This document shows, one piece after another, positions 28,327 through 29,640 of a stretch of DNA of 64,000 bases (position 1 is the stretch's first letter; every line of letters starts with the position of its first letter). Where the stretch lies: positions 639,114 through 703,113 of the forward strand of contig RQSC01000027.1 in the NCBI GenBank assembly GCA_013416795.1, read 5' to 3'. The stretch comes from Prasinococcaceae sp. CCMP 1430 (Eukaryota > Prasinodermophyta > Palmophyllophyceae > Prasinococcales > Prasinococcaceae). The notes under the pieces were generated by a model. The model made no database searches, had not been told where the DNA came from, and saw nothing but the letters and a program-made list of their open reading frames with translations. A program made the position numbers and the translations under genes.

Positions 28327-29033
28327 AGGCCGTCCTCGGCTCGGGTAAGGCCTCCATCGTCAAGTTCCTCGCTCCTTGGTGAGGTCACTGTAAGGCCATG
28401 AAGCCCGATTGGGACAAGCTTGGCAAGAAGTACGCAGACAACAGCAACGTGATGATCGTTGATGTTGACTGCACCGCGGCGGGGCAGGGTACCTGCCAGA
28501 AGGTCGGCGTCAAGGGCTACCCGGTGCGTGCGCGCGAAAGCGCATGCTTCGCACTCGCGGGCTCAGCCGGCTGCTGCCGAGCCGCGCGAGGTCGGCGCGG
28601 CCAGCGCACGGCTGACGCGTGCGCGTGTGTGCCATCGCGCTTGCTGGCCGCGCAGACCATAAAGTATTACTTGCCCAACGAGAAGAAGGGCAAGGACTAC
28701 CAGGGCGGACGTGACTTCGACTCGCTGGCATCGTTCGTTGAGTCGAAGCTCAACAAAGCCACCTGCGACGCGGTCACGAAGAAAGGCTGCGCGGCGAACG
28801 AGATCGCCTTCCTCGAGAAGCACGCCACTTCCACGCTCGACGAGATCAAGGAGGCGCTCAAGGGCAAGAACGACGACCTCAAGCAGATTCGCAAGGACAA
28901 GTCGAAGGCACAGGCCGAGGCCAAGCAGAAGGAGAGGGAGTTCACGAAGAAGGAGAAACTCACGCAGAAGTCCATCGGCCTGCTCAAGCAGCTCGAGAAG
29001 GCCGGCGGCGCTCCCAAGAAGGAAGAGCTCTAG
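28327..29033 (+). CDS. PDI/thioredoxin-domain selenoprotein with in-frame UGA (Sec)
   Basis: The reading is join(<28327..28523, 28656..29033), with UGA at 28380-28382 read as selenocysteine. The first exon after a CCCACAG acceptor gives [21 protein letters not shown]: a thioredoxin CGHC active site with the first Cys codon replaced by TGA. VDVDCT and VGVKGYP, spliced (GTGCGT donor, CGCGCAG acceptor) to TIKYYLPNE, complete the fold with its cis-Pro. The C-terminal part is a Lys/Glu-rich helical region (ERp29/P5-like D-domain position). Sec-containing PDI homologues are known in Emiliania and other algae. The enzyme should act in thiol-disulfide exchange, probably in the secretory pathway, but the signal-peptide exon is not found and no KDEL is present (ends KKEEL). 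A nonsense mutation is the alternative; intact downstream coding and the candidate SECIS argue against it. Confidence 0.85.
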
Positions 29034-29640
29034 CTCGCGGCCTCGCGGCAGTCGTGGGCGTACGCCGAGCCCAGCGCTCCAGCGCTTGCGCGATGGCTTC
29101 CCACGCAGCGCCCGCCGGCGCCACCCGCCCCGCTGGGCGGCTCCTTCCCGCAATGCCACCACGTGCACGGTGCTCATGACGCCGCCTCCCACAGGCCATT
29201 GTGCCGGGGGGAAGGCCGACACAGTGAATCATCATCACTGACCGCGCGCGGCAGCGAGGGGAGGGGTCGGACGGCTGGCGGCGGGAGGCGGCGGCGCTGT
29301 GCTGCGTGTGCTGCCTGCCGGCGCTGAGACGCACACGGTTTTCCAGTCAAGAGAGGGTAGGGCGGCCCTCACCCACTACTGTAATCGGGGGGGGCACGCG
29401 CTGCCAAATCTCAATCCGTTCACTTCGAGCGCGGCTGCGTGTGTCGACGGCTGCGCGCTGACGATGCGCGCTCGAGGGCCCAACCCCCAAGCGCGAGCTG
29501 CCGCGCGGCGCTGCGCAGCGCGACGGCCACGTGCGCCACGCACTGTGTCACTTGTGCAAGTCGAGGTCTTAAAATTTAGCTCTCCGAGTCGGTAGCACTG
29601 CGACTCGTTCCCATCTGTGTCGCCGTTCACATTCGACGTA
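29034..29640. other. 3' region of the selenoprotein gene and tail-to-tail spacer
   Basis: No gene is seen. The first 200 bases are interpreted as the selenoprotein 3' UTR with the SECIS candidate. The remainder is GC-rich, with an AT-richer patch at about 29565-29585, and leads to the stop of the convergent copper transporter. Confidence 0.5.
29166..29226 (+). promoter_or_regulatory. Candidate SECIS element in the selenoprotein 3' UTR
   Basis: It begins 133 bases after the stop. A lower stem CACGGTG (29166-29172) pairs with CACAGTG (29220-29226) with one mismatch. A CTC internal loop leads to ATGA (29176-29179) opposite GA (29218-29219), the position of the non-Watson-Crick quartet. The upper stem is GCC/GGC (29181-29183 with 29214-29216), a GC/AA mismatch, then CTCCC with GGGGG (one T-G pair). 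The 16-base apical loop starts ACA rather than the usual unpaired AA, so it departs from consensus there. Folding by hand only. Confidence 0.55.

Follow-up and report, generated by a model that had tools for sequence, protein, structure and literature searches.

The window, which is the whole 64,000-nt stretch of DNA that was analysed, very probably carries a nuclear gene for a selenocysteine (Sec)-containing PDI of the PDI/thioredoxin (Trx) family, from a prasinophyte-like green alga, with UGA recoding directed by a SECIS. This reading is based on an in-frame UGA at a redox position, coding sequence on both sides of it, a SECIS, other selenoprotein genes and a gene for SepSecS. It adds a well-supported predicted Sec-PDI and its SECIS to an apparently deep green-plant lineage (Prasinodermophyta). 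The features of the gene are given in Table 1.

Table 1. Features of the predicted Sec-PDI gene, with coordinates in the window
Feature	Coordinates	Strand	Evidence
Coding exon with the UGHC redox motif	28327..28523	+	PF00085 match, paralogue identity, GC3 bias
Predicted selenocysteine codon TGA	28380..28382	+	TGC (Cys) here in the paralogue
GT-AG intron, phase 0, 132 nt	28524..28655	+	Lacks codon-position bias
Final coding exon, with the rest of the Trx domain and a lysine-rich C-terminal tail	28656..29033	+	Stop codon TAG, 29031-29033
Predicted type II SECIS, 3′UTR	29168..29224	+	Local covariance models excluding the PDI element, covariation

Coding sequence on both sides of the UGA

The TGA is in frame and takes the place of the first redox Cys of CGHC in a Trx/PDI domain, as the first-pass annotation had read it; the codon aligns with the Cys of homologues, that of the paralogue included. 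Coding was also correctly said to resume through a spliced exon as far as 29033. The frame is open across the 28523/28656 junction (GTGCGT donor at 28524; 3′ end of the intron, GCGCAG). The exon with the redox motif is preceded by a CCCACAG acceptor and starts inside the Trx domain, and the last exon starts with TIKYYLPNEKKG... and ends in ...GGAPKKEEL-TAG. The read-through product matches Pfam Thioredoxin (PF00085; 5.4e-23) in a single stretch and also PDI-family structures (best: TXNDC5, PDI and PDIA3); the Trx fold predicted from the sequence is clear. A standard annotation would break the gene at the UGA.

The 191 codons of the two exons are free of frameshifts and of any second stop. In the exon with the TGA, GC content by codon position is 0.59/0.53/0.82 ahead of that codon and 0.55/0.40/0.81 behind it; the last exon has 0.53/0.33/0.89. 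GC content is flat in the intron (0.75/0.77/0.75) and likewise in the 3′UTR and the upstream DNA. The strong third-position bias is found on either side of the TGA; protein-coding selection therefore continues across it.

The locus was picked up independently of the first-pass annotation by a PF00085 profile search of the genome (24.5 Mb, 145 contigs), in which it was the only one of 33 matches with an internal TGA. A general reassignment of UGA to sense, which in-frame TGAs in several genes could suggest, is given next to no credence for this organism: the other 32 Trx-domain matches lack TGA, and the TGAs that were read in detail lie at known Sec positions (GPX, SelT, DsbA, PDI).

Cysteine paralogue

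The closest paralogue, at C107:156760-156918, has cysteine at the redox position: its motif is CGHC, and its codon is TGC where the present gene has TGA. Identity is 43% over 121 aa, spanning the TGA, the intron and both exons, and 58% for the exon 28327-28523. The first-pass annotation had named TGC homologues in close relatives, with a SECIS nowhere, as grounds against recoding; a Cys paralogue is present, yet the TGA copy has a SECIS. The CGHC of the paralogue, and the reading of the TGA from one assembly only, speak for an ordinary cysteine PDI that was altered from TGC to TGA by a sequencing error or a recent nonsense mutation. This explanation is nevertheless very improbable: the stop is the Sec codon, it falls exactly at the known Sec-PDI position, and the SECIS of the 3′UTR matches those of the GPX and DsbA genes. 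A Sec/Cys pair of PDIs in one genome is a natural comparison for what selenium gains in a disulfide isomerase.

Other selenoprotein genes and Sec machinery

At least five GPX genes have TGA at the catalytic position (C3, C68, C75, C76, C89), and a further GPX match containing TGA is found on C135. In the C68 gene (L033:1426-1587), an exact 81-nt in-frame tandem duplication repeats the Sec segment, which gives two UGAs (GKVALVENVAGL-U-GTTVKDYL twice); the product is a GPX with two Sec residues, or else the assembly is wrong here. A SelT-like selenoprotein with CQSU is encoded on the minus strand of C107 (L031, 226295-226705). Its SECIS candidate (L031:1246-1321, minus) gives only a weak match (10.9 bits; for its own locus, E is 0.069) and was left out of model training; its mini-stem is unusually long. 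A DsbA/FrnE-like selenoprotein gene (L015, C82:810484-813550, minus) reads CTQ-TGA-PHGYIGK and has a clear type II SECIS with an AAA bulge.

A genome devoid of Sec machinery had been named in the first-pass annotation as another ground against recoding. SepSecS is present (E=4e-112, with the SSTDKNFMVPVGG motif), as are the TGA-containing genes above; three other components were not found in searches of low sensitivity. For eEFSec, the best SelB-model matches were EF-Tu, IF-2 and an EF-G-type GTPase, and two eEFSec-domain families matched in no control genome; SelD gave no model match in the genome. In both searches, genes are matched exon by exon only. tRNA-Sec was not found in a weak search, in which 53 of the 2135 candidates were scored. 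That these three were not found is therefore uninformative.

Two groups of tRNA-Sec candidates were rejected. Matches to RF01852 are tRNA-Ser/Leu, several of them in plastid-like DNA. Matches to an anticodon/T-loop pattern are only mitochondrial trnL(caa) and non-tRNA sequence.

The GC content of the window is 68%, which fits Prasinoderma coloniale: the genome paper of that alga (PMC7455551) gives 25.3 Mb and 69.8% GC for its nuclear genome. According to the same paper, selenocysteine proteins are numerous in it (Supplementary Table 22).

Predicted SECIS element

Genome-wide, the two best matches to Rfam SECIS_1, both below threshold, lie ~0.6 kb downstream of TGA-bearing GPX genes on the same strand, and the third-best, through which the DsbA/FrnE-like gene was recognised, lies downstream of that gene. 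Two local covariance models were built, neither of which includes the PDI element: R1 (three GPX elements) and R2 (four GPX elements and the DsbA element). Their E-values are rough, from a shortened calibration. The top match of R1 in the whole window is 29169-29224 (+), with 15.5 bits (runner-up, 12.8); E is 0.0015 for the PDI 3′UTR. The first non-training match of R2 is 29168-29224 (+), with 23.9 bits and E=0.0022 in 126 kb (window and loci); the next has E=0.14. On the 3′UTR alone, R2 gives E=1e-5. The hairpin that had been proposed as a SECIS candidate from inspection (29166-29226) is thus the one that was retrieved.

In an alignment of six elements, 97% of the cells are paired and two-sided changes are found in 7 of the 12 pairs; because the structure guided the alignment, these counts are biased towards it. 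The eight pairs of the upper stem are all conserved, with compensatory changes. None of 500 shuffles was as good, and slid controls were not close either.

Rfam RF00031 gives no SECIS in the PDI 3′UTR even at E<=10, and folding stability is not above chance (z=0.09, ViennaRNA). A simple ATGA-helix-GA descriptor has 6 matches in the 64 kb (both strands) and matches in 20 of 1000 3′UTR shuffles; it is thus only suggestive. The evidence for the SECIS is homology and covariation, which are not outweighed by the ordinary stability, the weak lower stem or the bulge described below. A model trained on SECIS elements of the genome itself can retrieve one that the general Rfam model overlooks.

The predicted element lies about 135 nt 3′ of the stop codon and has type II anatomy: an AUGA/GA quartet under an upper stem of ~10-13 nt, then an apical bulge and a mini-stem. 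It shares with RF00031 (SECIS_1, type II) the quartet, a ~10-position upper stem, the bulge, the mini-stem and the placement in the 3′UTR. In the first-pass annotation, ATGA was placed opposite GA, and this holds (AUGA at 29176; CGA ending at 29219). The 7-bp lower stem given there is in fact six pairs with a G.A mismatch (CACgGUG/CACaGUG); this stem is weak and faces competition from another hairpin, CAGUGA/UCACUG. As for the upper stem, GCC/GGC stands and CTCCC/GGGGG is to be replaced by CCUCCC/GGGGGG (6 bp), which follows a 1x2 internal loop that is also present in the C3 and C68 GPX elements. The mini-stem is GGC(CAUUGU)GCC.

The bulge reads ACA, as had been noticed at first reading, and contains neither AA nor CC, whereas nearly all type II elements have AA. 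The other elements of the genome have AAA, ACAAA or CAA. At the matching positions after its AUGA, the DsbA element reads AAA, one base away from ACA. AA is typical and not universal: CC is found in some mammalian SelM and SelO elements (PMC3316567), and a published search rule accepts AA or CC (PMC2375036). The element has even chances of working in spite of its ACA bulge. If it does, the green lineage would tolerate a bulge outside the NTGA..AA/CC..GA rule, and screens based on such rules could miss selenoprotein genes here.

Predicted product

We infer that Sec is actually inserted and that the product has an endoplasmic reticulum location and a catalytic role. The type II SECIS would recruit the Sec machinery (SBP2, eEFSec and Sec-tRNA), and the UGA of the PDI active site would be decoded as Sec during translation. 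The expected product is a PDI with one Trx domain and a Sec-Gly-His-Cys redox centre. It is probably located in the endoplasmic reticulum; its C-terminus, KKEEL, resembles a KDEL-type signal, a resemblance that is only suggestive. Sec would be the attacking nucleophile in disulfide exchange, as in other Sec oxidoreductases.

5′ end of the gene

The exon that begins at 28327 starts at about profile position 14 of the Trx domain, and a signal peptide and the first Trx strand should lie upstream of it. A first coding exon with the signal peptide and strand beta-1 was not found in 27036-28326, nor by motif farther upstream; a very divergent exon, a misassembly and a truncated copy are possible reasons. 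An isolated C-terminal fragment of a [2Fe-2S] ferredoxin is found at 26884-27036 (+; E=2e-11 to solved ferredoxins) and adjoins an ankyrin ORF that starts at 26882 on the opposite strand. Interstitial telomere-like TTAGGG repeats occupy 27350-27372, where exon 1 would be expected.

The missing exon, the ferredoxin tail, the ankyrin ORF and the repeats all favour a 5′-truncated or misassembled copy that has lost exon 1 and is no longer expressed but retains exons 2 and 3 and the SECIS. This is considered unlikely: the 191 codons are without frameshift or other stop, the codon-position bias is strong and the SECIS is preserved, so any loss would have happened only recently. If the assembly is broken here, the real PDI gene would still be intact.

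Comparison with known Sec-PDIs

Sec-PDIs had been said to be known from Emiliania, and the literature bears this out: EhSEP2 (BAD98262.1), the Sec-PDI of Emiliania huxleyi, has one Trx domain and UGHC (PMC6254913). The present gene shares with it this one-domain form, UGHC at the PDI active site and an expected SECIS-dependent Sec. The two differ in lineage (haptophyte versus prasinodermophyte), and their likeness is one of anatomy, as described for EhSEP2. The Sec of EhSEP2 was demonstrated by 75Se labelling, whereas that of the PDI studied here is predicted.

Three Sec-PDIs are known in Ostreococcus and two in Thalassiosira (PMC2375036), and algal PDIs comprise five Sec classes, including PDI_a (PMC7539508). 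Like these, the present gene stands for a PDI-like selenoprotein from a marine alga. In Mamiellales, Sec-PDIs are paired with SELENOF, whereas no SELENOF neighbour is seen in the 64-kb window, because a search for further redox motifs with TGA found none there. This kind of protein is already well known in algae; the present gene adds a member with a mildly unusual SECIS.

Other features of the window and of the assembly

A 758-aa ORF at 22152-24425 (+) contains RNase PH domains and an inositol 1,3,4-trisphosphate 5/6-kinase domain; either this fusion is an unusual one, or two genes have been read as one. A run of ~90 C ending in N (30570-30661) is likely an assembly artefact or a collapsed simple repeat.

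One and the same piece of a mitochondrial genome (44% GC) is present on C41 and on C98. It contains trnL(caa) and trnG(ucc), as well as ORFs that read like sdh3 and like a cluster of rpl14, rps8 and rpl6. Among the prasinophyte mtDNAs compared in PMC3873408, trnL(caa) and sdh3 are found only in Prasinoderma, whose mtDNA has a large inverted repeat; its A+T content is given there as 54.2% in the text and 45.8 in Table 1. By these mitochondrial features and the nuclear composition, the host is most likely Prasinoderma or a near relative of it, and not a haptophyte.

C136 (477 kb; L009, L010, L012, L027) has plastid-like DNA (33-35% GC) mixed with GC-rich nuclear-like DNA; it is a chimeric contig or a large organelle insertion. 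The plastid-like part includes tufA and ORFs reading like chlI, psaC, clpP and ribosomal protein genes.
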